Part shown: positions 13,701-46,712 of the stretch, piece after piece
How positions within the stretch are numbered: position 1 is the first letter of the stretch
Layout: each line of letters opens with the position of its first letter
NCBI GenBank assembly: GCA_905181965.1
Contig: CAJIZY010000009.1
Location: 186,001 to 250,000 of the forward strand
DNA: 64,000 bases
Reading direction: 5' to 3'
From: Akkermansiaceae bacterium
GTDB lineage: Bacteria > Verrucomicrobiota > Verrucomicrobiia > Verrucomicrobiales > Akkermansiaceae
Position numbers and translations under genes: made by a program
The notes under the pieces: model-generated
Seen by the model: only the letters and a program-made list of their open reading frames with translations
Told to the model about the DNA's origin: nothing
Databases searched by the model: none

Positions 13701-15769
13701 CTGCCACCGTTTCCGGAACCTTTCTCTTGGAACAACCAGCAGACGCTTCAAACCTCGTGATTAGTGAGATTAACTACCACCCGCGGGAAGCCACCCTCCT
13801 CGAGAAACGTGACGCTGCGCCCCTCGATCTAGAAAACAAGGATCTCTTTGAATTTATCGAACTCACCAACAACGGGACAACCGCAATTAATCTTGCCGAT
13901 CTCTCCTTTACGGAAGGAATCTCACTTTCGCTCTCCCCCTTCCCAATTGCTCCTGGCGAACGGGCACTCGTCGTGCGGGATCAAATCGCTTTTCTGGAGC
14001 GATATGGTCAGGATCTTTCCAGCCTGATCGCGGGAACTTTTGTTGGTGCCCTTGATAACAACGGTGAAATCCTCACCCTCCTCGATAGCGAGGGAAGCTT
14101 AATCAGCTCTTTTCGCTTCGATGATTCTGACTCCTGGCCAGCCCGCCCCGACGGTGACGGATCATCATTGGAGCTCCGTGACCTTACCGGCGACCTTTCT
14201 AATCCCGATAGCTGGGTTCCCAGCGCAGCCTTCCACGGTTCCCCGGGGGTTAACGGCCCCATTTCCGATCGAAGAGTGGTCATCAACGAAGTCAGATCAG
14301 CTGACCCCGGCTTGGACTTCATCGAACTTCACAACACCACTGCCTCCCCTCTCGAGATCGGAGGCTGGCTTCTTACCGACTCCAAGAGTGTTTACCGCTC
14401 ATACGAACTTCCCCAGAAAACACTTGGAGGACTCGGCTATTTTGTCATCGAGGAGAGCCAATATCATGCTCCCCCAGCAAATCCTATCACCAACTATACG
14501 GGAATCGCAGGATCCAGTCCAACCACTGTAAAAAGCAACGCTCACGGATTATCCACCGGAGATCTCATCACGATTGATGGATACAATGGCTTTTCCAAAT
14601 TTAATGATAGCTTCGAAGTGATCGTCATTGATCAAAACAGCTTTATGATCGACGCCACATTCCTCGATAACACTGCCATCAAAGGAAATTGGCAAACCGG
14701 CCGCCCCTTTGGCCTCAATAGCGGAGGAAATGGCGAAGACCTCTGGCTCGTTGAAACCAACAGCTCCGGTCAACCAATAAGCTTTGTCGACCAAGTTGAA
14801 TTCGCAGCGGCAGCTCCTGGAACCACCCTCGGACGTTGGCCTGATGGTCTAGGGGCTGATACGCTCTTCACGATGACAGCTCGCACACCCGAGGCTCCAA
14901 ATAGTGGGCCGGCCCTCGGGCCAGTTTTCATCTCCGAAATTCACTACGCTCCAACCGGTTCCGATTCGCACGAATTTGTCGAACTCACTAACACCGGAGA
15001 TACCGCGGTCTCGCTTGAATTCTGGAAACTCAGGGGTGGACTCGATTTTGACTTCAATTCTTCTCACCGCATCGCCGCAGGCGCATCAATCGTCATTGTC
15101 ACTTTTGATCCTCAAATTAATATCGCCCAAACTATTAATTTCCGAGACACCTTTAAAATCACGCCCTCAGTCACCCTAATCGGACCTGCAACCGACGGGC
15201 CGCTCAATAATTCGAACGGGAGAGTGCGACTTCAAAAAGGCCTCGACGACGATGGCACCGATCAGGTTACAACCGATGACGTTCACTATCAATCAACTCT
15301 TCCTTGGCCGGATGCTACTGGAGGCTCCTCGCTGACGCGCAATGGAGCAATTGACTACGGAAATTTCTCGAGCTCTTGGAATGCCGCAAACCCCACACCT
15401 GGAAAAATTCTTGAAACCGAAAGCTACCAAAACTGGGCCTCAAAGAATGGTGTTGGTATCGAAGACCTAGATCCAGACGGCGATGCCCTCTCAAACCTTC
15501 TCGAATTTTCGCTTGGTACTGATCCGAATTCTCATGATGAGCTCGCTTCCCTCGTCCAGATCGCCCCTGATGGAACGGTCAGCTTCACCAGACAGATCGA
15601 TCACAGTGGAGTAACTCTTGAGTTCCAGACGTCTACCGACCTCAAGACGTGGTCAACGAGAGAAACTCTCGTTAGCGCATTATCAGGATCGATCCAAACG
15701 AGGCAATTCAACTTAAACCTATCGGACACTAACAAGACGTTCTGGCGTCTTCGGGCTATTGCATTCTAG
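10734..15769 (+). CDS. Giant secreted CotH-kinase / lamin-tail / chitobiase-C protein, frameshifted
   Basis: Two overlapping frames (10734-13064 and 13049-15769) are one gene. Adding one base to the AAA at 12974-12976 turns the end of the first frame into DLGKYYDGTDPLRSDGTISP and continues into the second, giving 1678 residues. Order: signal peptide; lamin-tail domain (SIIINEFMAGND, about 24-165); chitobiase C-terminal-like module (ATIYYTTDGSSP, about 190-260); CotH spore-coat kinase-like region (about 340-720, with LKVQGGASRNPSSSPKHSL); second chitobiase-like module at the break; a beta-sandwich (DDGSWEEGQGLIGG, about 825-985); three more lamin-tail domains (starting near 1008, 1181 and 1397); C-terminal tail DPDGDALSNLLEFSLGTD. 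Probably exported and glycan- or surface-associated. CotH proteins phosphorylate secreted proteins in Bacillus, but the substrate here is unknown. Confidence 0.85.
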
Positions 15770-17127: not shown

Positions 17128-19318
17128 ATGAGAGTGCTCATTCTAATTGTTTGTTCTTTAAGTATCTTACAGGCGCAGACTCATGGCTGTAACGTCTGAT
17201 CCTCAGGCAACTGAAGCTGCTTAAATTTTGCTAAAGCGTCTGCACGATCAGGCAGGAAAGGGAATCATGATCGGGCACCAAGATGCCACGGCTTATGGGG
17301 TGGGCTGGAGATCTGAAACTGGCAGAAGCGATATCAAGGAAGTTTGTGGGGATTATCCGGCAGTTTATGGCTGGGACCTTGGAGACATTCATCTTGATCA
17401 CAATCTCGACGGTGTCTCCTTCACTGAAATGAAACGCCTAATTCGCGAGGCGGATGCCCGTGGTGGTATCAATACGATTTCAATGCACCTCGATCATCCG
17501 GTAAGCGGGCGCAATGCTTGGGATAACACAAAGGTGGTTGGCCAAGTTCTCCCAGGAGGAACCGCCTCTAAGAAATTTCTAGCAACCTTAGATTTGATCG
17601 CTGCGTTTTTGGGCGATTTAAAGCGTGAAGATGGCAGCTGCATTCCTGTAATCCTGCGACCCTTTCATGAACACAGTGAACGATGGCCTTGGTGGGGCCG
17701 GAGCCACTGTGAAGATGGCGAATTTATAGCTCTATGGCGTATGACTGTGAATCACCTGCGGCTCACAAGACACCTTCACCATATTCTTTATGCCATCTCT
17801 CCTCAAGATATTGTCGATGAAGAAGACTACATGGAAGGCTATCCCGGTGATGATTACGTCGATATCTTTGGGCTCGATTATTACAAAATCTGGAAGCAGC
17901 GCGACGTGCGGCAAATGGGTAAAGTTCTTTCGATGGTCGCACAACTCGCTGAGTCCCATGGTAAAATTTCTGCTTTAACAGAAACTGGAATTGACAAAGT
18001 CCCTATTGCTAATTGGTGGACTGAGCGCCTCCTGCCAGCGCTCAACCACGACGAATGGTCCCGGAAAACAGCTTGGGCATTGTTGTGGCGTAACAAATCG
18101 CGCGGACATCATTTTGGCCCGCACAGCGGACATCCGAGCGCCCCTGATTTTACGAGATTTTATGATAGTGAACTTACGATCTTTGAAGCGCAGACCGCAA
18201 TGCAGGAAGTTAAGGCGGCACAAGAAGTCCTGATCAAAGATCAACACTGCCTGTCAAACGTTGCCAAGGTCGTGCAACGAGGAAAGGTCCTTTACCATAG
18301 GGCCGTAAATTCCAATTTCCCCGGGGATCGCCCCATCACGGATGAGACCTTATTTCCGATTTGGTCGATGACAAAACCGATCACCAGCGTTGCCGCGATG
18401 ATTTTGCATGAGCGCGGTTCTTTTCGACTAGATGATCCGGTTTCTAAAGTAATCCCACAACTTTCTCAGCTGAAAGTTCAAGATAAGAAAGGCCTCACCA
18501 AACCCATTAAGAGAGAGGTTACCTTCCGGGATCTTTTGCGACACACTTCGGGGATTTATGGTTACGACGGATCCTTTCATGAGGAGGGCACATGGAAAGA
18601 GATCATAGAACTGAAAGACCTTGCTGAAATGATTGATCTTCTGGTCAAACAACCCCTTAAGCATCATCCCGGAGAGCGTTATACCTACGGCATGAGCACT
18701 GCTATCCTTGGGAGAGCAATCGAAATAATATCCGGGCAAGACTTCGCATCTTTCCTCGAGAAGGAGATCTTTCAGCCTTTAGATATGGGAGACACCAGCT
18801 TTCATCTTAATGATGAAGATCGAGAAGAACGCTTTCAGCCGCTATTCGTTAAAGAGAAATCGAATTTTCGTCGAGGAACCAAAAGAGAGGATGAATTATA
18901 TTATCAGCCCGGAAGTGCTTTGGCTTTAGGGGGTGAAGGTTTGATTTCAAATCTTCGCGATTATGGCCGATTTTGCCAGATGTTGGTCGACCGAGGGCGG
19001 ACTCGTGATGGCAAAACAATCATCTCTAAAGAGACGCTATCACTTATGCTAAGCGACCAGATGGGAGAAATCCCCGGTTATGGTGGAGAGCGTTCTGCCA
19101 ATCATTTGGGTTTAGGGTTTTATGTCCTAGAAAACCCTGAACTAGGTGGCGATGGAGCGCCCAAAGGTATTTATGGGTGGAGTGGGTATCACACCACCCA
19201 CTTTTGGATTGATCCAGTCAACGAACTCTACGCCATTTTTATGACCCGTTTATATCCCACACCGGGCAAAAGTTTACAGATTTTCAGGAAAGCGGTTTAT
19301 CAAGGTTTCGGGCAATAA
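17128..19318 (+). CDS. GH26 beta-mannanase-like domain fused to a beta-lactamase-like serine hydrolase, broken 5' end
   Basis: The open frame 17228-19318 encodes 696 residues. The first 330 are GH26-like: GIMIGHQDATAYGVGW, DYPAVYGWDLGDI, ILRPFHEHSERWPWWG (candidate acid Glu), YPGDDYVDIFGLDYYK, ALTETGIDKVP (candidate nucleophile Glu). Residues about 365-690 are a class C beta-lactamase/esterase-like fold: WSMTKPIT (SxxK Ser-Lys), DLLRHTSGIYG, YTYGMSTAILGRAIE. The 5' end is damaged. A signal peptide opens at ATG 17128 (MRVLILIVCSLSILQAQTH) but runs into TGA at 17197. The mannanase frame upstream of 17228 hits TAA at 17222. Removing one G at 17185-17186 and shifting one T between two nearby T-runs gives QTHAVTSDPQATEAALNLL, a continuous secreted protein of about 729 residues. 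I infer one exported enzyme. Confidence 0.75.
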
Positions 19319-36628: not shown

Positions 36629-36840
36629 GCCCCATTAAAAATACGACCCTCCGTTTTATTTCAACGCTCAATTGATTCATGCGATAGCTGAAAGAAGTGA
36701 GGGGGTTACTTCCTCTAAACACTGCTCCATAATTGACAAAACAGAGACTCCAAATCTCTGGGAGGTTTTCCCGTAAGCGAGATAAGGGGTTTTTTGAATA
36801 AGCTGGCAGAAGTTTCTAGCCTAGACTAATGGAAGGGTTC

Positions 36841-36900
36841 TTGGCGCATGCCTTATATAAGGCGGTGAGAGATCTTTTGGTCCTAATATGGGTTCTACTC
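36841..36900 (+). repeat. Dispersed repeat, copy 1 (5' half only)
   Basis: CTTATATAAGGCGGTGAGAG at 36852, then TTTTGGTCCTAATATGGGTT, matches the 5' half of the full copies at 40981 and 42211. It ends inside the stop codon region of the reverse-strand sialidase-like gene. The 3' half is missing. Confidence 0.6.
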
Positions 36901-38640
36901 CCAAAATAATTTGTCGAATCTCATGGCGTAGAGCTCTGCATTGCCTTCGAGTTCAAACCGGACCGTGACGGGAGTAGCCACGTATTTTTCGAGCTTGAAG
37001 CCATCGGACCATTGGACGATCTCTCTGGTCTTAAAACCACCAGTAATCGGTTCGCTCTTTTTGATTATTTTGCCGTTGGGATCGAGTAACGAGACGGTGA
37101 TGCTACCGGAAGAGACGTCGCAACTAATTTTCATTTCATCGCCGGCCAGACAGATCTTGTGGGGCAGGATATGCCCCTTGGCTTTGGGGTCGACGAGTTT
37201 ATAGCCAGCCTCAAGCCTCTCGATCCGGTCATCGCTGATCTTAAAAAGCTTGGCATTTTTTACAGCCTTCACAAAAGGCGGCTTCTGCTGCATCCGATAG
37301 ACATGCCTCGGAGGTAGGACAAACTCATCGGAATCAGGACCAATCCTTACCAAGTTCTTGCCGACCGGGGAGTCTTTAGCGAAGGCATACTTACCGGCTT
37401 TTTTGTCGTCCGGTTGCAGCAGCCAGGCCATGTTGAATCGCGCTATCCCGCCTTCAATAGAACGAACGTAAATGAATCCTTCACTAGGCGTCCCTTTTCT
37501 GCCCTGGGTGATCCACGAATAGTTGCCGGGACCTTCCTTGATCAAACGATTGACGGGCCATGTTTTACCGCCATCAAAACTAGCCCATACGTTGACGTTT
37601 GCCCGATTCTGTTTCTCCGGCAAACTCGGATCGGGCGAACTGAACAGAAGAATATCGCAGTCGTCACGGTCGAGCCTCAGCAGCCCGGCCTTGCAGCCGT
37701 AAATATCAGGCGGTCCATCAAACAACTCATCGTCTTCGTGAAGATCACGCCAGGTCTCTCCACTGTCGTCGCTATAGGCGATCCAGCGGTTCCCCTTCCT
37801 CGCACTCGTTCGGGTATTAATGTATATTGTCCCATCGTTAAGCTCGACCAAACCGCATTCACCGGTTCCCTTCAACGGAAAGGGTTCGCTTGAGTGCCAT
37901 GTCTTTCCATGGTCGTCGCTGTAAACCGCGTTGGAATAAGAGTTTTGATCTCCACCCTGTTTGCGATAATCCGGCATTACATGAGAGGCGGCCAGAAGAC
38001 GCCCCTTATGCTGACCGTGCTTAATGGTGATACCGGGGCCGTGCGCCGGGTTGGGGCTTGGAAAAAAACCTCTGGAGTCTTTATGCAAGACGATCTTTTC
38101 AAGTTTCCAGGTTTTGCCGTGATCCCGGCTCTTATACATAAACGGCGCAGGGTGGAGGGATGTCATGAAAACCATGATCTCGCCAGTATTCTCATCAACC
38201 ACGCTAGTGCCTAGCGTAGCATAGGCAAAATGCTTATCATTACCCCATCCTTCCCCATCGTATGGCCCGATACCCAGAGATTCCCAATCCATTTCGATCG
38301 ATTTACCGATCTGCTGGCGCTCCGACCAGGTCGCTCCTCCGTCTTCTGATCGCCTAAGAAAAATCTCATGGATATCTTTTCCTCCACCGCGGCCAAACAT
38401 TAGGACTGTGCCATTCATGGCGACTGAAAGGGTGCCATGTAGACCGAGACCACCTTTATCCCACTGCTCAAAAAACGGCTCAGAACTGCCGATGACCGAG
38501 AAAACATTTAGGCCAGTACGAGACTTGGTCGAGTCAGGCGTCTCCTCAGTCCTCACTATTCCGGTGACTGCAACCCAAATAGCGGCACAGGCAACAGACC
38601 TTCCTAATATAGGGAACTCACCTCTCTTTGATCCTCTCAT
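36895..38640 (-). CDS. Sialidase-like BNR/Asp-box protein
   Basis: 581 residues with a signal-like N-terminus (about residues 13-30). Five Asp-boxes define a six-bladed propeller: SEDGGATW, SRDHGKTW, SDDHGKTW, SDDSGETW and SFDGGKTW. The region around LRRSEDGGATWSERQQIG and the RIP-like start fit exo-alpha-sialidase (GH33) relatives. Residues about 470-581 form an added beta-sandwich (SSGSITVSLLDPNGKII and PVTVRFELEGNAELYAMRFD) that also occurs at the end of the protein at 39096. The substrate may be sialic acid or another acidic sugar. I cannot confirm the Arg triad. The gene is bounded on both sides by copies of the dispersed repeat. Confidence 0.82.
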   Translation of the reverse strand: MRGSKRGEFPILGRSVACAAIWVAVTGIVRTEETPDSTKSRTGLNVFSVIGSSEPFFEQWDKGGLGLHGTLSVAMNGTVLMFGRGGGKDIHEIFLRRSEDGGATWSERQQIGKSIEMDWESLGIGPYDGEGWGNDKHFAYATLGTSVVDENTGEIMVFMTSLHPAPFMYKSRDHGKTWKLEKIVLHKDSRGFFPSPNPAHGPGITIKHGQHKGRLLAASHVMPDYRKQGGDQNSYSNAVYSDDHGKTWHSSEPFPLKGTGECGLVELNDGTIYINTRTSARKGNRWIAYSDDSGETWRDLHEDDELFDGPPDIYGCKAGLLRLDRDDCDILLFSSPDPSLPEKQNRANVNVWASFDGGKTWPVNRLIKEGPGNYSWITQGRKGTPSEGFIYVRSIEGGIARFNMAWLLQPDDKKAGKYAFAKDSPVGKNLVRIGPDSDEFVLPPRHVYRMQQKPPFVKAVKNAKLFKISDDRIERLEAGYKLVDPKAKGHILPHKICLAGDEMKISCDVSSGSITVSLLDPNGKIIKKSEPITGGFKTREIVQWSDGFKLEKYVATPVTVRFELEGNAELYAMRFDKLFWE

Positions 38641-38890
38641 GGCTTTCCTTATTCGTAATTCATTAGAAATGAAACATAGTCTGAAATACCCAGACCTAGG
38701 AAGCGAGATGACAATACTCGAAAATTGACAGGTTCAGATGTCGAGACCAATCAGCATCAAACTCATTTGATTACTTTCACACCAAACGCAACCAGCCCAA
38801 CTCGGCACTTCCGTGTAAAGACGAACTAGAGTCTAGCCTTTGGGAAGCCTTAAACCTTTGAGAGCAAAAGGTTTTGTCAGGTATTAGACT

Positions 38891-39087
38891 CTACCCATCC
38901 TACCGGGGGAACACCTGCCGCACGCTCGATATAATATGGTAAAGGAGATTTTCGGGTCTTTAAGATGGGTGTAACTCCGATTGGGGTTTAATTCGATTTT
39001 TAGGGCGTGAACACTTATCTTAGGCTCTATATTCCAGTCGCAAGTGCGACGCCAACTCCTTCCCGCCAAAAGTAATTTCCTAGCAGT
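38891..39087 (+). repeat. Dispersed repeat, copy 2 (full length, with insertion)
   Basis: Begins ACCGGGGGAACACCTGCCGC (38912 onward), contains CTCGATATAATATGG, AGATGGGTGTAACTCCGATT and GCGACGCCAACTCC, and ends TCCCGCCAAAAGTAATTTCC-TAGCAGT. It is about 30-40 bases longer than copies 3 and 4, owing to extra sequence in the middle. It abuts the start codon of the next gene (ATG 39096). Confidence 0.7.
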
Positions 39088-39095
39088 CAAATGAA

Positions 39096-40694
39096 ATGAG
39101 ACGATTCATACCCGTAAGAACCCACTTTCTTTTGGTTTCGCTGGTCTTGCTTGGACACATAATCCTACTAGCGGATGACAACACAGGGAAGGAGCTAGCC
39201 CGGCAACCCATCGCTTTTAAAGCACCCACTTTGGATTCGAAACCGCTTAAAATTGGTTCACGCAGAGAGCTGTTCGTCGACAACTACATCTTGGGATCCC
39301 TGCGCGGCAGCGCTAAGAGACGACTGTTTGCGATGACTCCCGCGACCAATAAGACCACGGATGTCGCCATGACTCATGATGCCGATTGGGAGGGGCCTTG
39401 GTGTCGGTATGCAAAGTATATTCAGGACAACGGCGTCATCAAAGCCTGGTATATGGGCCACCACTCCTACGGGTGGAACAAAAAAATGAAAATTGCGGGT
39501 GGCCGTCTCTGTTACGCGATCAGCAAGGATGGCCGCACCTTCGAAAAACCCAATCTTGGGATCTACGACTGGATTGGCTCAAAGCAAAACAACGTCCTTT
39601 TTGACGATACCACTTTTAAAGCCAAAGATAGCGGAGACTGGATCGCTACCCATCAATTCAACCCATTCATAGACACGAATCCGGCAGCACCGGCCGCGGC
39701 AAGATACAAAGGATTTAGTGGGCAAGGGCACCATTGCGGGAAGACTGGTCTCTATGCCTACCAATCCATTGACGGCATTCACTGGGAAATAGCGAGCGAC
39801 GGGCCGATCGTTAGCAATGACTATTCTTTGGACTCCTGCAACCAAGGGTTTTGGGATGCGGAACGAAAACGCTACGCCGTCTATTTCCGTCATCTACGTA
39901 ACGAATCAGGCGAATCAGGAATCAAGGCTCCAGGCTGGAAACGCGATATCCTTGTGACCTTCTCCAAAGACTTCATGAACTGGACCGAGCCGCAGTGGCT
40001 CATCTATCATCGGGACGACGGGCGGCCAAGTACCGAGCTAGAGCACCTCTACACCAACGAGGTGAAACCATACAAACGCGCACCACATATTTACCTCGGC
40101 TTCCCGGCGCAGTTCAATGGATCGGTCGACCCCATGCTAATGGCGAGCCGCGACGGCCTCCACTTCTATCGCTGGATGGAACATCCCGTCATTCCAAAAT
40201 CGGCACCTGCTGACCGCCACAAAATCCGCTCCAACCATCTTTGGCAGGAGATGGTAGAACTCCCAGAAGAACCAGATAAACTCTCCATGTATGCAAGTGA
40301 GAACTTAGGTATAAAAGGCCCACACGAGGACGGTAGCTTCCCTCGGGTTCGCCGATTTACAATCCGCAAGGACGGTTTTGTCTCTGTACGCGCTACGGCG
40401 GAACTAGGAGAGCTCGTCACCAAACCGTTGATTTTCACTGGCAAAAAATTGACCGTGAATTACAACGCCCAACTCGGGGAAGCCGGCGAAATTCGTATTG
40501 AGGTTCTAGATGGCAAAAAACAACCGATCTCAAGTTTCGCGTTAAAAGACTGCAACCCGCTCTCCGACGATGATATAGACGCTGTCGTCACATGGAAAGG
40601 TGGAGAGGACTTAAGTAATCTCGCAGGCAAGCCGATCCATCTGCGTTTCGTCCTGAATCAGGCCGATCTATTTTCGTTTCGGTTTACGGAATAG
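39096..40694 (+). CDS. Secreted glycoside-hydrolase-like beta-propeller protein
   Basis: 532 residues with signal peptide (THFLLVSLVLLGHIILLA). The body (about 50-420) shows propeller-type strands, each ending in short WxxxxDG or SxDGxxF turns (YAISKDGRTFEKPNLGIYDW, AYQSIDGIHWEIASDGPIVS, TFSKDFMNWTEPQWLIY, MASRDGLHFYRWMEHPVIPK). This pattern is shared with five-bladed GH43/GH32-type and related planctomycete proteins. The C-terminal 100 residues are a beta-sandwich (GEIRIEVLDGKKQPISSFAL, GKPIHLRFVLNQADLFSFRF). The active acids cannot be assigned. It probably acts on extracellular glycan together with the divergently oriented sialidase-like protein. Confidence 0.65.
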   Translation: MRRFIPVRTHFLLVSLVLLGHIILLADDNTGKELARQPIAFKAPTLDSKPLKIGSRRELFVDNYILGSLRGSAKRRLFAMTPATNKTTDVAMTHDADWEGPWCRYAKYIQDNGVIKAWYMGHHSYGWNKKMKIAGGRLCYAISKDGRTFEKPNLGIYDWIGSKQNNVLFDDTTFKAKDSGDWIATHQFNPFIDTNPAAPAAARYKGFSGQGHHCGKTGLYAYQSIDGIHWEIASDGPIVSNDYSLDSCNQGFWDAERKRYAVYFRHLRNESGESGIKAPGWKRDILVTFSKDFMNWTEPQWLIYHRDDGRPSTELEHLYTNEVKPYKRAPHIYLGFPAQFNGSVDPMLMASRDGLHFYRWMEHPVIPKSAPADRHKIRSNHLWQEMVELPEEPDKLSMYASENLGIKGPHEDGSFPRVRRFTIRKDGFVSVRATAELGELVTKPLIFTGKKLTVNYNAQLGEAGEIRIEVLDGKKQPISSFALKDCNPLSDDDIDAVVTWKGGEDLSNLAGKPIHLRFVLNQADLFSFRFTE

Positions 40695-40980
40695 GCGAAG
40701 AGCAAATTTTCGAAGGCCAAAAGCTAACCCGAGAGTGGTGAGACCGGAAAACCCAGGAGAAGACAGAGTAGAGTCGACCAAAGCACCTCAAGCACCTTTC
40801 CCCAACCTACTGAGTTAAATTTGTGGCTGATAGCTGCTCATTGGTCCTGTCGTGACGAAAAGGCGGGGCGGTGGTTTTACTCGCCTAGAAATCCCTTTGA
40901 ACCAACCTAAAGAACTTCTTTTGCTTAGTTTCGTTGGGCTTCTTGAACTCCTCCACGACTCCCCCGCCATCTTAAGACCA
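40695..40980. other. Intergenic between a propeller protein and repeat copy 3
   Basis: No supported gene in these 286 bases. Both ends are near repeat-family sequence. A Met-less frame in the following repeat is a shadow. Confidence 0.3.
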
Positions 40981-41149
40981 CCCACCCACCGGGGGAAAAC
41001 GCAGTGCGCGTTCCATGTAATGCGGCGGCAGATTTTTGTGACTGAATTGTCCCCCTCTCTCTACTATGGGTGTGACTTCGATTGGGTTGTTATCTTTTGG
41101 TCCAAATGCGACTTCAACCCTTTCCAGCCAAAAGGAAATTGCTGGCAGT
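40981..41149 (+). repeat. Dispersed repeat, copy 3 (full length)
   Basis: 169 bases from CCACCGGGGGAAAACGC (40987 onward) to GCTGGCAGT. It contains CTATGGGTGTGACTTCGATT, a self-complementary pair CTTTTGG (41094-41100) and CCAAAAG (41128-41134) around GCGACTTCAACCCTTTCCAG, and the terminal motif. Aligns over its whole length with the copy at 42211. It sits 34 bases upstream of the next gene. Confidence 0.75.
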
Positions 41150-41183
41150 AGCCCGGAACATTAGGTTAACCTAATCTAATAAT

Positions 41184-42035
41184 ATGAAACTACCTAGATA
41201 TTGGGCAAAGGGGTCGGCGGGAAAGGTAATGGAGGACTTCGCCTGCTGGGGATGGTCAGATATAAGCGTAGAGGAGGCACAGGAAAGAGGTGAGCAACGA
41301 GCTGCTTCTGTGGCAAAGATTATCCGTAGCGGCCTACGACCGGACCACTATCTATACGGTGATCGTCCGATGCGAGAGAAGATTATCGAGGAATGGGAGA
41401 GAGAAGATGCAACGACCTATGCCGCCGTTACTCTGAATGCCTACGGTTGTCAGATCCTTAATACGGCGAGTGTCATGTTTGTTGACGTAGATCTTCCCAT
41501 GATACCAGCTTGGGATACGATCAAACACAAACTGGCAGGGATTTTAGGAAATAAAGATCCCTCTCCTAGAGAACGCCAGGAGTCCGAGGCTCTTGCCAAG
41601 ATCGAGGAAATGATCAGGATTGATCGGCAATGCGGCATTCGGGCCTATCGAACAGCTGCTGGACTCCGATACTTGTTTACCCATGCTCACGCCGACCCAA
41701 CTGCCGAGAGCACGCTCCGTGCGATGGAAGAACTTGGCGCGGATCCACTCTATATGCGGCTGTGCAAGATTCAGGAATGCTTCCGGGCACGGCTTAATCC
41801 GAAGCCATGGCGTTGCGGAATAAAACCCCTGCGGATCACTTACCCATGGGAGGATGAGACGGCGGAGCAAAGTGCGCTCCATTGGATTGCCGCCCATGAA
41901 AAGAAGGCGCAGGAATATGCGACATGTTCGCTTATAGGCCAATTCGGATCCAAGACCATGGACACGGAAATTGCCCGCGTAGTAGAGTTTCATGACAGCG
42001 CGACTAAAGCGGAGTCAGGGCTGACACTTGCGTGA
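41184..42035 (+). CDS. Conserved protein of unknown function with primase-like motifs
   Basis: 283 residues, no signal, soluble. It starts MKLPRYWAKGS, followed by ACWGWSDISVEEAQERGEQR, AAVTLNAYGCQILNTASVMF then VDVDLP, GIRAYRTAAGLRYLFTHAHA, ADPLYMRLCKIQECFRARLN then PKPWRCG, and QEYATCSLIGQFGS. The hydrophobic-DxD motif (MFVDVDL) followed by a T-x-x-G-hhhh-T-H motif resembles the catalytic motifs of archaeo-eukaryotic primase folds, but the link is tentative. The same set of motifs occurs in uncharacterised proteins of several phyla as I recall. The gene is isolated between two full copies of the dispersed repeat, unlike its carbohydrate-active neighbours. Confidence 0.6.
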   Translation: MKLPRYWAKGSAGKVMEDFACWGWSDISVEEAQERGEQRAASVAKIIRSGLRPDHYLYGDRPMREKIIEEWEREDATTYAAVTLNAYGCQILNTASVMFVDVDLPMIPAWDTIKHKLAGILGNKDPSPRERQESEALAKIEEMIRIDRQCGIRAYRTAAGLRYLFTHAHADPTAESTLRAMEELGADPLYMRLCKIQECFRARLNPKPWRCGIKPLRITYPWEDETAEQSALHWIAAHEKKAQEYATCSLIGQFGSKTMDTEIARVVEFHDSATKAESGLTLA

Positions 42036-42210
42036 ACAGGCACAATGCGGAATGGAGTGATAAGTGATAAGACATACATGGTTTGAGAGATCCGACACCT
42101 TGCTCGGCCCCATGCTGGCGAGATCGTGGTCTCAGCTTTATTTGAGCACAAGGTTTCGCTGTGGCACACTTCCAGCGGAAATTAGGTTCCAGAGTTTGAG
42201 ACGGTTCGCC

Positions 42211-42369
42211 CCCACCCACACCACTGGGGGAAAACGCGGCGGACGCTCCATATAATAAGGTGGGAGATTTTTTGGTCCCTAATATGGGTGTGACTTAGAT
42301 TGGTTTGTTATCCTTTGGCCCAAATGCGACTTCAAAGCCTTTCCCGCCAAAAGGAAATCCCCTAGCAGT
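42211..42369 (+). repeat. Dispersed repeat, copy 4 (full length)
   Basis: 159 bases. ACTGGGGGAAAACGCGGCGG, then GCTCCATATAATAAGG, TAATATGGGTGTGACTTAGA, and the self-complementary pair TCCTTTGGC (42311) and GCCAAAAGGA (42346), ending CCCTAGCAGT. It differs from copy 3 by scattered substitutions and small indels, so the copies are not recent duplicates. Confidence 0.75.
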
Positions 42370-42465
42370 GATCTGAGATCGTGGTAAACTTCGACATGTA
42401 GGCAAATGTGACGGTAAATGAAATGTGTTTAAGGATAGAACCGCAGGTTTTATAAAGGGAATATT

Positions 42466-44145
42466 ATGAGAAAAATTATTACAGCAGCGGCATTTTTTTT
42501 ATTTGTTGTCATTTCACAGATTTCGGTCGCCCAGCAGATCGATGTTGGCACTCTTCTTGAGGAGATGGTAGATCGTTCAAAGCTCGCTGAGTTCCCAGAA
42601 CCTGTATTTCAGTGTAAACAGTTCAGCAGCTACAACAGAGAGACTATCGCGGTCGGCGAGGAAGGCTGGTTCGCAAATGCCGACTCGTCATTTTTTGAAG
42701 GCTATGAGGATGTTGACGGAAGACGTGAATGGATCATGATGGATGTCGATGGCCCCGGTTCAGTGGTCAGATGGTGGCTTACGCAGCAGAAGTTTGACGG
42801 TACGGTCAGGATATATCTTGATGGCTCAGATGTAGCGATCTTTGCTGCAACTTCTGACAAGATCGTTGGCGGAGACGCGATCACAGGGAGGCCTCTCAGC
42901 AATGTTGTCGGCTGGAACGGTCGAAATCTTTATATGCCGATCCCATTCAACAAACATTGTAAAATAACTTACGACGGCCCAAATGCGAACGTTACCGGTA
43001 AGTTCCCTGACTGCCATTACTACAACATTAATTACATCAAGTATTCAGCTGGAACGGATGTTAAGACCCTTACAAAGAACGATCTTACAAAACATTCAGC
43101 TCTGATCGATCAGGTGCAGGAAAAGCTTTTAAAGCCTGAAGAGAACAAGCTTGCAGTATCGAGAAAAGCAGCTGGGGGAAAAAAGACGCTTAAAAGTGGT
43201 AAGAGCCTTACTAAAAAGATCAAAGGTGCTGGTGCGATCAGTTCGCTCGAACTGAAAATTGACTCGGACGATATTGCAACCGCGATGCGCACTACCGTAA
43301 TCAGCATCAGCTTTGACGGCAAAGAACGTGTACTCTCTACGGTCGGTGAATTCTTTGGATGTGGACCTGGCCTGAATCCTTTTAAGGGTTGGTGGCGACA
43401 GGTGCAAAGTGATGGCTGGATGAAGTGCTGGTGGCCGATGCCGTTTAAGAAGAACGCTACGGTTAAGATCATCAACTATGGTGATGCTGACGTTTCTGTC
43501 GAACTTGGTCAGATCGGCATCAGCGACTGGAAATGGACCGACACGACGATGTACTTCAACACCACCTGGCGAAGTGAGAATAACATGAAAACCACCGAAC
43601 CTTTTGACTGGAATTTCGTGACTGTCGAGGGCAAGGGCGTTTATGTGGGCGATACACTGGCACTTTTCAATGAAGCGATTCAGCCTCATCCGAGGGGCAC
43701 CGGTACATGGTGGGGCGAAGGCGACGAAAAGATATTCGTTGATAAAGAAGCTTTCCCGTCAACCATTGGTACTGGCACAGAAGATTACTACGGATATTCA
43801 TGGGGCGTTGGAGGCACCTTTAGTGCACCTTTCCATTCGATGCCTCGCGGTGACGCAAACGGTAATTATACTCTGCCAAACCATACGACCAATACCAGAG
43901 TAAGGTCACTCGACAAGATACCATTTAATACGCACCTCAAGTTAGACATGGAAGTTCTACATTGGCAGAAGATCGCAGTTCTGGATTATGCTGTCACCAC
44001 CCACTTCTATGCTGTTGGCACTGCGGAGGCAAACGGTGACCTTACACCTGAAAAGGTTCAGGTTAAGCTCGGTGATCCCAAGGTTGCTGCTGCTGAAGCT
44101 GAAGCTAAGGCCAAGGCGGCAAAGGAAGCGTTAGAGTCGAAATAA
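42466..44145 (+). CDS. DUF2961 (GH172) family secreted glycoside hydrolase
   Basis: 559 residues with signal peptide (KIITAAAFFLFVVISQISVA). The double jelly-roll family is recognised by SSYNRETIAVGEEGWFANAD, MMDVDGPGSVVRWWLTQQKF, FGCGPGLNPFKGWWRQVQSD, WWGEGDEKIFVD and PSTIGTGTEDYYGYSWGVGG. The last two hold the candidate catalytic Glu residues of GH172, whose studied members act on fructofuranosides and arabinofuranosides. The C-terminus ends in an Ala/Lys/Glu helix (AAAEAEAKAKAAKEALESK). A purine-rich AAAGGGA lies 9 bases before the ATG, one of few apparent ribosome binding sites in the window, so the gene may have a different origin from its neighbours. Bounded by repeats on both sides. 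Confidence 0.88.
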   Translation: MRKIITAAAFFLFVVISQISVAQQIDVGTLLEEMVDRSKLAEFPEPVFQCKQFSSYNRETIAVGEEGWFANADSSFFEGYEDVDGRREWIMMDVDGPGSVVRWWLTQQKFDGTVRIYLDGSDVAIFAATSDKIVGGDAITGRPLSNVVGWNGRNLYMPIPFNKHCKITYDGPNANVTGKFPDCHYYNINYIKYSAGTDVKTLTKNDLTKHSALIDQVQEKLLKPEENKLAVSRKAAGGKKTLKSGKSLTKKIKGAGAISSLELKIDSDDIATAMRTTVISISFDGKERVLSTVGEFFGCGPGLNPFKGWWRQVQSDGWMKCWWPMPFKKNATVKIINYGDADVSVELGQIGISDWKWTDTTMYFNTTWRSENNMKTTEPFDWNFVTVEGKGVYVGDTLALFNEAIQPHPRGTGTWWGEGDEKIFVDKEAFPSTIGTGTEDYYGYSWGVGGTFSAPFHSMPRGDANGNYTLPNHTTNTRVRSLDKIPFNTHLKLDMEVLHWQKIAVLDYAVTTHFYAVGTAEANGDLTPEKVQVKLGDPKVAAAEAEAKAKAAKEALESK

Positions 44146-44221
44146 CCCCCTTTCTCCCCCATGTATTCCGCCCAACCCGGGTTTCCGCGACCTTTCCAGC
44201 CAAAAGCAATTTCCTAACAGT
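44146..44221 (+). repeat. Dispersed repeat, copy 5 (3' part, fused to DUF1080-like coding remnant)
   Basis: Starts directly after the DUF2961 stop codon. CCCCCTTTCTCCCCCATG is shared with copy 6 at 45650, and the end is TTTCCAGCCAAAAGCAATTT-CCTAACAGT. The reverse strand reads GKVAETRVGRNTWGRKG, a degenerate match to GKVAETGDWRNPWGRKGG at 45.7 kb. Confidence 0.6.
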
Positions 44222-44224
44222 AAT

Positions 44225-44368
44225 CCCGAACGCCCTCCGGGAGTGGATCACTTCACCGGAACGGACTTGGTCACCAACCACGTCGAACAACACTGGTGCC
44301 CCTCATTCACCAGCGCTGATCTGGTCGGCGGAAAGCCATTCCGGTTTAAAGAGGACGAAAGGAAATAG
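44225..44368 (+). pseudogene. Gene remnant (C-terminal fragment)
   Basis: An open stretch with no start codon, ending at TAG 44368. It reads PGVDHFTGTDLVTNHVEQHW, then CPSFTSADLVGGKPFRFKED. The composition is protein-like, but the family is not identified. It sits just behind the truncated repeat copy 5, which suggests a gene whose front was lost by rearrangement at the repeat. Confidence 0.4.
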
Positions 44369-44378
44369 ACCCGAAAAA

Positions 44379-45299
44379 TTACTTTGCGCAGAGTTTCTTC
44401 ATTGCTTCACCCATAGCTTCACCAATCAGATAATAAGTCTCGGCATTGCCATTCCAATGGTAACCTTGACGGGACGGCGATTCTTCGGCCGGACGAAAAA
44501 ACCCGGCGGTCTGGACACAGTCGACATTGCCTTTGAATTCGGGGTAGGTCTCGGGAGCGGCCTGAGCTTTGCGAATCAGAAGACGACGGTCAACTTTCTG
44601 CTTCACTCCGCCAAACCCGCTGTCTGCAATCACGAAAGGAAGATTTTTGACGCCGAGATCCTTTCTCACGTCCCGAACAAAATTGGAGAGATTTTTCTCA
44701 TACTCAAGTGTCGCAGGCATTCCGCAACCGTCGTTCCACCCCTGGTGCCAACCAAAGCCCACCACCTCATGACCCCGCCCTTCTAATTCCGGAAAGTTTT
44801 CTCCAAGCTTACCTAAAACGTCTTTCACATGCCCAATCATCTCCTTGTAATAGGGACCGGGATCCCCACCCGAACTTGGTGGACGAAAATCTTTTTGAAG
44901 GCTCTTTCCGCCCCAGGCAGTCTTAAGGAGGAGAACCGGTTCTTTGATCGCGTCACCCATGACATGCCCAAAGGCATACTCGGGACCGATCGCACTTGGT
45001 CTTGCTCCAAAACCTGGCGCCAGCTTCCCCTTACGCCCAAGGTACCAAATAAACACGTCATCTCGGGCGCTCCATTTTCCATCCTTATCCTTAAGATGTT
45101 TGTGCTTTTTCGAATTCTCCACCAAATGGCTAAGGCTTCCCTTTCCTCCGTTACGCTTGGGATCACCTTCGATCTTTCCCGCACCCTCCATGTTTGATTG
45201 TCCGGCAAGAATAAATACCTTCACGGAGCCCTGCGGAGGACACGCAAAAAGACCCAAAATTCCGACAAGAAAGACAAAAAGAATGCAAAGGGTGTTCCT
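44379..45299 (-). CDS. Sialate O-acetylesterase-like SASA (DUF303) protein
   Basis: 306 residues from ATG 45299, giving the signal MRNTLCILFVFLVGILGLFA (in-frame upstream ATGs exist at 45323 and 45341). SGNH/SASA motifs: VFILAGQSNMEGAG (block I, catalytic Ser), LLLKTAWGGKSL (Gly block), VVGFGWHQGWNDGC and a C-terminal GYHWNGNAETYYLIG (catalytic His). Family members deacetylate sialic acids or act on other acetylated glycans. Exported. Next to the GH172 and sialidase-like genes in a glycan-use context. Confidence 0.85.
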   Translation of the reverse strand, partial: RNTLCILFVFLVGILGLFACPPQGSVKVFILAGQSNMEGAGKIEGDPKRNGGKGSLSHLVENSKKHKHLKDKDGKWSARDDVFIWYLGRKGKLAPGFGARPSAIGPEYAFGHVMGDAIKEPVLLLKTAWGGKSLQKDFRPPSSGGDPGPYYKEMIGHVKDVLGKLGENFPELEGRGHEVVGFGWHQGWNDGCGMPATLEYEKNLSNFVRDVRKDLGVKNLPFVIADSGFGGVKQKVDRRLLIRKAQAAPETYPEFKGNVDCVQTAGFFRPAEESPSRQGYHWNGNAETYYLIGEAMGEAMKKLCAK

Positions 45300-45395
45300 C
45301 ATGATAAATCCTTTACGTTCACTCATGAGGAAAGCTTCCATGGATCATGTTTGCTTTAGCGTTTCCCTCTCGCGCTCTGATTAGCAGGTAAATAA

Positions 45396-45716
45396 CTACC
45401 CATTTTTCAAGAAGAGATCCTTATACTCCACCACCATCCCTTTGTCGTGGAGTTGCAGACCGATGAATCCTTTGCGAAGTTGCCTCCCCTCCAACTTGTC
45501 GGTGAATTCGGATGAAAGTTTTCCATTGATGAAAAACTGAAAGTGATTCCCCTTCGCCACGATCCGACAGGCATTCCAGTCGCCCTTGTTGATCTCCTTC
45601 ATCTGCACCGCATTCTCGATCTTGCGATGATGTCCCTTGCCTTTCTCATCACCCCCCTTTCTCCCCCATGGGTTCCGCCAATCTCCGGTTTCCGCGACCT
45701 TTCCACCAAAAGTAAA
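45396..45716 (-). pseudogene. DUF1080 (3-keto-disaccharide hydrolase domain) C-terminal fragment
   Basis: A reverse-strand open stretch without an N-terminus: an in-frame TAA at 45719 lies directly before it. It reads GKVAETGDWRNPWGRKGGDE, then VQMKEINKGDWNACRIVAKG, NHFQFFINGKLSSEFTDKLE, and ends QLHDKGMVVEYKDLFLKNG. This is the last part of a LamG-like DUF1080 domain. The full domain is about 200 residues, so roughly half is missing. The truncation point coincides with the dispersed repeat copy 6. A GTG at 45608 could start a 70-residue product, but it would not fold as the family does. Confidence 0.7.
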
Positions 45717-45727
45717 TTACTAACAGT
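45650..45727 (+). repeat. Dispersed repeat, copy 6 (3' part)
   Basis: About 78 bases. CCCCCCTTTCTCCCCCATGG leads, then CCGGTTTCCGCGACCTTTCC, and the terminal AAAAGTAAATTACTAACAGT. Nearly identical in layout to copy 5. Its 5' part is coding sequence of the DUF1080 fragment in reverse. Confidence 0.65.
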
Positions 45728-46621: not shown

Positions 46622-46712
46622 TGGCGGACCGGGAGGGATTCGAACCCTCGATACGCTTTTGACGTATACTCCCTTAGCAGGGGAGCGCTTTCAACCACTC
46701 AGCCACCGGTCC
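46622..46712 (-). tRNA. tRNA-Ser (anticodon GCU)
   Basis: The reverse strand gives a 91-base tRNA including an encoded CCA end. The acceptor stem GGACCGG pairs with the 3' CCGGTCC. The D-arm is GGCTGAGTGGTTGAAAGC. The anticodon loop is CTGCTAA, with anticodon GCT (reads AGC/AGU serine codons). A long variable arm (TATACGTC ... GCGTA) is typical of type II tRNA-Ser, and the T-arm is GAGGGTTCGAATCCCTC. Confidence 0.96.

Follow-up and report, generated by a model that had tools for sequence, protein, structure and literature searches.

Chromosomal integrons hold single genes between repeats of ~60–150 bases that share one orientation; their attC sites end in the motifs RYYYAAC ... GTTRRRY, and neighbouring genes are swapped at the 3′-end of the repeat. 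Miniature inverted-repeat transposable elements (MITEs), ERIC, Correia and similar sequences are non-coding, multi-copy interspersed repeats of bacteria with sub-types that share their ends, and eukaryotic elements of the short interspersed element (SINE) type carry different 5′ heads on one shared 3′ tail with a short iterated 3′-end. Two papers on sedentary integrons mention orientation and the leading strand (PMC5371416, PMC11023631), and another presents REP and REPIN sequences as small, intergenic, non-autonomous repeats (PMC3116915). The repeat family described here was found in a stretch of 64,000 nucleotides (the window; positions 186,001 to 250,000 of contig CAJIZY010000009.1) from the Akkermansiaceae bacterium assembly GCA_905181965.1. 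Six copies, designated c1 to c6 and all on the + strand, form a ladder between genes at positions 36838–45727 of the window. The ladder is a cluster of non-coding, apparently non-autonomous repeats in a variable island that is anchored at a tRNA-Ser gene, in a marine genus of the Verrucomicrobiales. The most likely reading, to which we give about an even chance, is that the family consists of interspersed repeats, non-autonomous and polar with respect to replication, at whose cores genes are exchanged. No description of the family was found in the literature searched, subscription journals and preprints lying outside that search.

Gene turnover at the repeat copies

An initial annotation of the window had proposed that gene units arrived or were shuffled through six copies of one ~160-base repeat. 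All six copies exist, at or near the places it gave, and they divide into two sub-types plus one truncated copy (Table 1). Copies c2, c3 and c4 (197, 172 and 158 bases) were assigned to type I and c5 and c6 (75–76 bases) to type II, the last ~40 bases being common to both types; c1 is a 5′ part of type I, covering model positions 22–90 of 164. Pairwise similarity reached E values of 7e-31 (c3 and c4) and 8e-21 (c5 and c6), and chance was ruled out, as the pattern CCTTTCCNGCCAAAAGNAATTTCCTAGCAGT (up to three mismatches) had 3 matches in the window and 0 in 100 shuffles. The reported spacing of c2 and c5 from their neighbouring genes was confirmed in the sequence, and the four genes that lie singly between copies are indeed intact open frames.

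The tRNA-Ser(GCT) gene beside the ladder was syntenic in relatives, and in L062, L064 and L065 repeats likewise lay to the 3′ side of it (G numbers label genomes, L numbers the sequence stretches compared). The island next to it held different gene sets in five genomes (G000, G020, G038, G014 and G015), and conserved synteny without turnover was therefore not what the locus showed. In G020, a single type II copy separated the 532-aa gene from the tRNA region, and the 283-aa, GH172 and SASA genes of the window were missing. In G038, the 283-aa gene stood behind a fusion of type II and type I, and the island contained a second, decayed tRNA-Ser 3′-end; G014 and G015 had other content, and no copy was present on that side of the tRNA gene in the stretches compared from G003, G022 and G017. 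The decayed 3′-end lies with its downstream flank at L063:8558-8699 (G038:C133), in direct orientation and ~3.8 kb from the other one, and this duplication may be the mark of an earlier tRNA-targeted integration. A tRNA-Ser(GGA) gene was seen beside a repeat at L043:4177-4337 (G015:C7), where 4 bases separate the CAGT end from the 3′-end of the tRNA gene and the repeat faces the gene as in the window island.

Repeat copies mark junctions where different DNA was joined. The start of the gene at 39096 was preceded by type I in the window and in G020, and in G015 the copy at this place was type III-like. For a second gene start, the preceding copy was of type I in L028, III-like and partial in L032 and of type IV in L094; a third followed type III (L079), type IV (L029) or no recognisable copy (L024). 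Genes were cut at the left ends of repeats in comparisons of L065 with L024 and of L129 with L041, as was the DUF1080 fragment at c6, and by eye several left joints resembled short-homology joints or cut genes. Smaller differences began at short stretches that also occur in the repeat, namely GGCCCCG, CCGCGACC and CATGTATT (by eye).

Two comparisons of close genomes each revealed a two-gene stretch (2.1–2.3 kb) between copies of the core AATTTCCTAGCAGT that one genome had and the other lacked. Close to the gene of an HU-like protein, so named by eye, G009 had 2140 bp more than G005, in which a repeat lay directly beside the HU side. The extra piece encoded an ankyrin gene and a 260-aa gene, had 13–14 bases of the core at both ends as a direct duplication, and carried two repeats of its own that were inverted relative to the site. 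As it was absent at this site in G002, G005 and G018, an insertion in G009 is favoured. The second comparison, of G018 with G002, showed a difference of 2.3 kb that comprised a 186-aa gene, a type II repeat and a 476-aa sulfatase gene (two one-gene units), and the single repeat of G002 looked like a hybrid of the two in G018. G005 had the right-hand repeat at the position that it occupies in G018, so a loss in G002 is favoured. Gene units thus differed between genomes with boundaries exactly at the repeat core, as in an integron-like cassette exchange by any recombinase, which argues that exchange at cores adds or removes genes. The different gene sets of the island and these two cases bear out the proposed shuffling of genes through the repeat; the one-strand order of the ladder, by contrast, tends to follow GC skew, as described below.

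These observations could also point to a true cassette system unlike integrons, in which a recombinase would integrate and excise circular gene units, each made of a gene plus its 3′ repeat, at AATTTCCTAGCAGT. Such a system would fit the direct duplication of the core around the 2140-bp difference, the hybrid-looking repeat at the G002 site and the swapping of the upstream repeat at its 3′-end. It would also fit the arrangement of neighbouring copies, counted at loci that had been chosen for having copies: one open reading frame (ORF) of ≥100 aa was the commonest content of the 181 intervals (83, against none in 36 and two or more in 62), and 168 of the 181 neighbour pairs lay on one strand. 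The 83 intervals with one ORF agree with the single genes between copies noted in the window. We nevertheless consider a cassette recombinase unlikely. The 2140-bp unit had just 14 bases of repeat at its right end, left joints varied and some cut genes, and the same gene start was joined at points ~20 nt apart in G018 compared with G005 and G009. Gene orientation was nearly mixed, adjacent genes being weakly co-oriented with the repeat (same strand for 164 of 264 on the left and 148 of 262 on the right), repeat orientation tended to follow skew, and no enzyme family tested tracked the repeat. The irregular left joints, weak co-orientation, skew-following ladder and lack of a tracking enzyme among the families tested likewise give no support to the dedicated gene-collection system suggested by the initial annotation.

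Distribution and a replication-linked tendency in orientation

The window belongs to contig C9 of a 2.64-Mb genome that is 61.6% complete. A sequence model of 57 copies had at least 22 matches in this genome and matched 20 of 27 genomes of the same genus; 16 of the 27 were repeat-rich (at least 22–91 matches) and 11 repeat-poor (0–3), these counts being lower bounds from 150 candidates scored per genome. The family is therefore not confined to the ladder. A search with c3, which detected mainly type I, found copies in 14 of 38 genomes; these were the genome of the window and 13 of the 23 others in its genus, against 0 of 14 others of the order. An exact scan for the core returned at least 104 stretches, among them records under the titles Luteolibacter and Prosthecobacter that carry type V, a related variant, and hidden Markov models of five types identified 338 distinct copies in the sequences compared. 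The copy-bearing relatives were mostly marine metagenome-assembled genomes titled Akkermansiaceae or Verrucomicrobiales, and viral contigs held 0 copies. Copies were also seen on contigs labelled Deltaproteobacteria, Halioglobus, Myxococcota and Microbacteriaceae (L083, L115, L150 and L158); these labels are probably binning errors, possibly of mis-binned Verrucomicrobiales DNA.

The family is mostly intergenic, with 27 of the 338 copies inside an ORF of ≥150 aa, so random placement within genes mostly does not apply. Repeat orientation tended to follow replication polarity, which was unexpected. As written here, the repeat lay more often on the C-rich strand than on the other (74 of 105 loci of ≥5 kb, overlaps kept). 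Among loci of ≥8 kb, 42 of 59 had most of their copies on the C-rich strand, as had 28 of the 36 with an absolute skew above 0.03 (97 of 118 copies at these 36). The coding strand added 0.004 to GC skew; the replication part alone gave agreement in 35 of 49 loci, and in 27 of 35 where it was clear, and intergenic skew agreed with repeat orientation in 42 of 55. A one-strand ladder fits such a replication bias and is by itself no evidence of a captured array; its use as proof of an array was given up.

Structure of the repeat and its ends

Complete copies shared a 3′ core with a sharp end, CCAAAAGNAAWTTCCTAGCAGT, and conservation halted directly after CAGT. Types I and II end near CCAAAAGNAAWTTCCTA(G/A)CAGT. 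The terminal TAGCAGT that had been ascribed to the full copies was found in the complete ones, and was missing from c1. The short types start at CAACCCCC, and their 5′-ends were mostly fixed. A coding origin of the repeat was rejected by eye, the types differing in frame. Rfam gave no match to the repeat in the stretch tested; over 33–50 kb the sole match above the gathering score was the tRNA.

The 3′-end was iterated in some copies. CAGT formed the next four bases after the end in 26 of 215 copies, with up to three further units in a row, and it occurred within 7 nt of the end in 35 copies compared with 3 in a control stretch, a count for which the pattern used misplaced a few repeat ends. 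Longer terminal pieces were iterated within 30 bases in 30 of 215 copies and in 11 in each of two control stretches. Varied 5′ heads on one 3′ tail, a fixed 3′-end and short tandem 3′ units are features shared with SINE-type elements. They would suit a family that is copied onto lagging-strand 3′-ends from a single-stranded template, with a ~14-base core as the point of gene exchange; a template with a fixed end would give both the fixed 3′-end and the iterated CAGT. This would be a new kind of repeat mobility in bacteria, and taken as a whole it seems quite improbable to us. The mostly fixed 5′-ends of the short types depart from the SINE pattern, as does the distribution of reverse transcriptase given below.

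The repeats resemble MITEs, ERIC and Correia sequences in being non-coding and multi-copy, with sub-types that have common ends. An extinct or rare transposase could have spread them as small elements into islands with a turnover of their own, leaving passive debris at junctions made by ordinary illegitimate or homologous recombination in hypervariable DNA. Both ends were complete in 172 of 270 short copies, the islands also held other repeat families, and hybrids were joined inside CCGCCAAA, all of which such debris would explain. By eye, however, the left end CAACCCCC and the right end TAGCAGT are not terminal inverted repeats, no clean empty site was found, and no target duplication for the repeat itself was seen among copies with flanks collinear in another genome. 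A generic MITE would also leave the CAGT iteration and the replication tendency unexplained, and the cassette-sized exchange at the core is a further difference from MITEs. We regard MITE-like debris as possible, if doubtful.

One of the other families in the islands is a short repeat (CCCGGTGGTTTACCTTTGGCCAC...GTAGTTGTCGGG), which was seen at L062:5386-5451, L097:7778-7846, L148:5398-5465 and L027:10216-10281 and 13835-13899; in L062 and L097 it lay directly before type II. A variant with the middle part of the present family and another 3′-end (like AAACCACTTCTAGTGACACAAAGCCGGCCTCTAGCACGCAT) occurred in L027 from ~7790 and from ~15482, in L063 near 5300 and in L193 at ~1795–1845.

Fold prediction gave no consensus pairs across 57 aligned copies of mixed type. 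When folded by type, the top strand scored 0 for types II, III and IV, −2.3 for type I (0 of 30 column shuffles as low) and −2.2 for type V (11 of 30 as low); the bottom strand scored −9.9 for type I (12 rows) and −11.7 for type V (6 rows), both without a shuffle control. Small size, intergenic position and apparent lack of autonomy are shared with the REP/REPIN–RAYT system. Unlike REPINs, the copies had no consensus hairpin and were not inverted doublets, neighbours lying on the same strand as counted above.

Candidate enzymes

None of the four recombinase and polymerase families tested (integron integrase, island integrase, Y1 transposase and reverse transcriptase) tracked the repeat, and the co-occurring recombinase expected of a gene-collection system was thus not found among them. 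Integron integrase (TIGR02249) scored above the cut-off in 7 of the 27 same-genus genomes (G001, G003, G010, G013, G019, G022 and G040), which suggests that true integrons may occur in this genus. Four of the seven were repeat-poor; the repeat-rich ones were G003, G022 and G040, and no match above the cut-off was found in the window's own genome or in 13 of the 16 repeat-rich genomes. These integrases, together with the one-strand ladder of repeats between genes, would allow the ladder to be a degraded integron, a cluster of attC sites lacking an integrase (CALIN), with attC sites that remained after integrase loss. This is very improbable given the poor overlap of integrase and repeat, the lack of consensus pairs in the 57 aligned copies and the same-strand counts of adjacent genes, which are not overwhelmingly in array orientation. 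In addition, the 3′-end TTCCTAGCAGT, with its TAGCAGT, is not GTTRRRY (by eye), which upholds the earlier observation that integron att core motifs are absent.

Y1 transposase (PF01797) was present in 14 of the 27 genomes, the repeat-rich ones being only G006, G021, G022 and G040. At E 1e-6, 12 of the 16 genomes rich in the repeat, among them the window's own, had no match, a difference from both the REPIN/RAYT and the IS200/IS605 systems. Reverse transcriptase (PF00078) was found in 9 of the 27 genomes and 4 of the 16 repeat-rich ones, and a repeat lay near 2 of 19 reverse transcriptase loci. Unlike what a SINE-type system would imply, 12 of the 16 repeat-rich genomes had no match within their assemblies, a helper outside them being possible.

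The initial annotation had seen no integrase nearby. In G000 the island tyrosine recombinase had no match at E 1e-5; a qualification is needed just left of c1, where an apparent remnant resembles the C-terminus of a tyrosine recombinase that stands ahead of a type I repeat in L028 (Table 1). Eight of the 16 repeat-rich genomes and three of the 11 repeat-poor ones had some match to this recombinase at E 1e-5, and the only close copies were those of G015 and G040 and the pieces in G038. The gene was at first taken for the missing enzyme, since type I repeats follow the intact gene in G015 and C-terminal pieces in G015 (two, one of them at ~220 bases from a partial type I) and G038 (two); the left flanks of the type I copies were 69–72% alike over 122–174 nt. 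The G040 homolog (60% identical) had no type I repeat in the 216 bases examined downstream, and an N-terminal piece in G038 (L194) had no repeat. With intact close homologs in two genomes only, and with the G040 gene and L194 lacking the repeat, the island integrase was dropped as a general partner. By eye, the strand opposite to the tyrosine recombinase gene carries a tRNA-like 3′-end shortly upstream of it, at L176 ~1385–1457 and L177 ~1484–1544 (G015 and G040). As such a sequence precedes both intact genes, the enzyme looks like a tRNA-targeting island integrase; possible signs of a tRNA-targeting element were the integrase remnant beside c1 and the duplicated tRNA-Ser 3′-end in L063 of G038.

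Genes and other features of the window

The coordinates of the island features are listed in Table 1. Homologs of the 532-aa gene were found in G020, G015 and G014, with a distant one in G038, and the DNA homology of the 283-aa gene region to G038 spanned 40964 to 41959. Elsewhere in the window, a single ORF at 17228–19318 combines GH26 and beta-lactamase-family domains.

Table 1. Repeat copies, genes and remnants of the tRNA-Ser island (window coordinates)
Feature	Position	Strand	Evidence and remarks
Tyrosine recombinase C-terminus with stop, remnant left of c1	36726..36776	+	translation SIIDKTETPNLWEVFP* resembles ...SMIKKTEASKLWEIHP of L028:9847-11064
c1, type I 5′ part	36838..36905	+	nhmmer; overlaps end of sialidase gene; orthologous truncated copy in L068 (G038) and L069 (G020)
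BNR sialidase-like gene, 581 aa	36895..38640	-	PF13088, 8.3e-23
c2, full type I	38891..39087	+	model 1-163; orthologous copy in G020 (L062 7121-7340); type III-like in G015 (L025)
532-aa gene	39096..40694	+	no Pfam, NCBIfam or PDB sequence match; ATG begins 8 bases past c2
c3, full type I	40978..41149	+	orthologous unit in G038 L063, fused behind type II left half
283-aa gene, no family found	41184..42035	+	no Pfam, NCBIfam or PDB sequence match
c4, full type I	42212..42369	+	type I model match
DUF2961 (GH172) gene, 559 aa	42466..44145	+	PF11175, 9.7e-63
c5, type II	44146..44221	+	model 1-73/73; begins directly after GH172 gene stop
Open stretch without start codon, probably gene fragment	44222..44368	+	directly after c5, from sequence; no Pfam match for 44222-44365
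SASA carbohydrate esterase, 320 aa	44379..45341	-	PF03629, 1.5e-23
3-keto-disaccharide hydrolase (DUF1080), C-terminal fragment cut at c6	45396..45650	-	PF06439 positions 114-187, 2.1e-13
c6, type II	45653..45727	+	model 1-73/73
tRNA-Ser(GCT)	46622..46712	-	ARAGORN; 3′-end faces ladder; anchors variable island in relatives

Discussion

The ladder is like an integron cassette array in that single genes lie between repeats of one orientation and neighbours are swapped at the repeat 3′-end. Unlike integrons, the repeats had neither an associated integrase nor attC end motifs and were spread across many contigs; they are set further apart by their CAGT iterations, by left joints that vary and by neighbouring genes that are weakly co-oriented. 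If these are replication-polar repeats that exchange genes at their cores, a new copy would be made by 3′-anchored copying or insertion at exposed lagging-strand ends; the fixed 3′-end, the CAGT iterations and the left ends joined at short homology point to anchoring of this kind. In an island that has gathered several copies, exchange among these would delete, insert or re-pair the intervening genes. The outcome would work like a cassette array and would need no dedicated gene-capture integrase.

Several observations weigh against this explanation. L042 and L152 differ by 6.66 kb, and this difference ends not at the core but at a repeat of 9 bases on the left edge of a copy. Among 347 copies with usable flanks, scored in overlapping classes, 22 had both flanks collinear in another genome around the repeat itself; the collinear flanks enclosed a larger segment for 11, a smaller one for 3 and other content for 3; an "empty" class of 3 came from two sites, one of them represented twice, neither was clean, and the islands vary too much for a strong empty-site test. 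No clean repeat-only insertion was seen, so transposition of the repeat itself remains hypothetical. Copies with only the 3′-end complete outnumbered those with only the 5′-end (76 compared with 14), an excess that might suggest LINE-like 5′ truncation but may reflect detection bias, as the left half is less conserved. Eight of the 36 clear-skew loci had the opposite orientation, one of them with 5 copies, as did 8 of 35 by the replication part alone, and the polarity loci are not independent, five pieces coming from one G015 contig. The strand richer in coding sequence was also favoured, at 37 of 59 loci and by 128 of 203 copies, and metagenome assemblies could misjoin at repeats.

The family poses the question of what activity copies or recombines a non-palindromic, replication-polar repeat that is not accompanied by the recombinase families tested, and its 22-base core is a ready marker for mapping gene turnover in these genomes. 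Gene exchange at these repeats would explain how single genes, for glycan degradation and other functions, are exchanged without integrons in uncultured marine Verrucomicrobiales.

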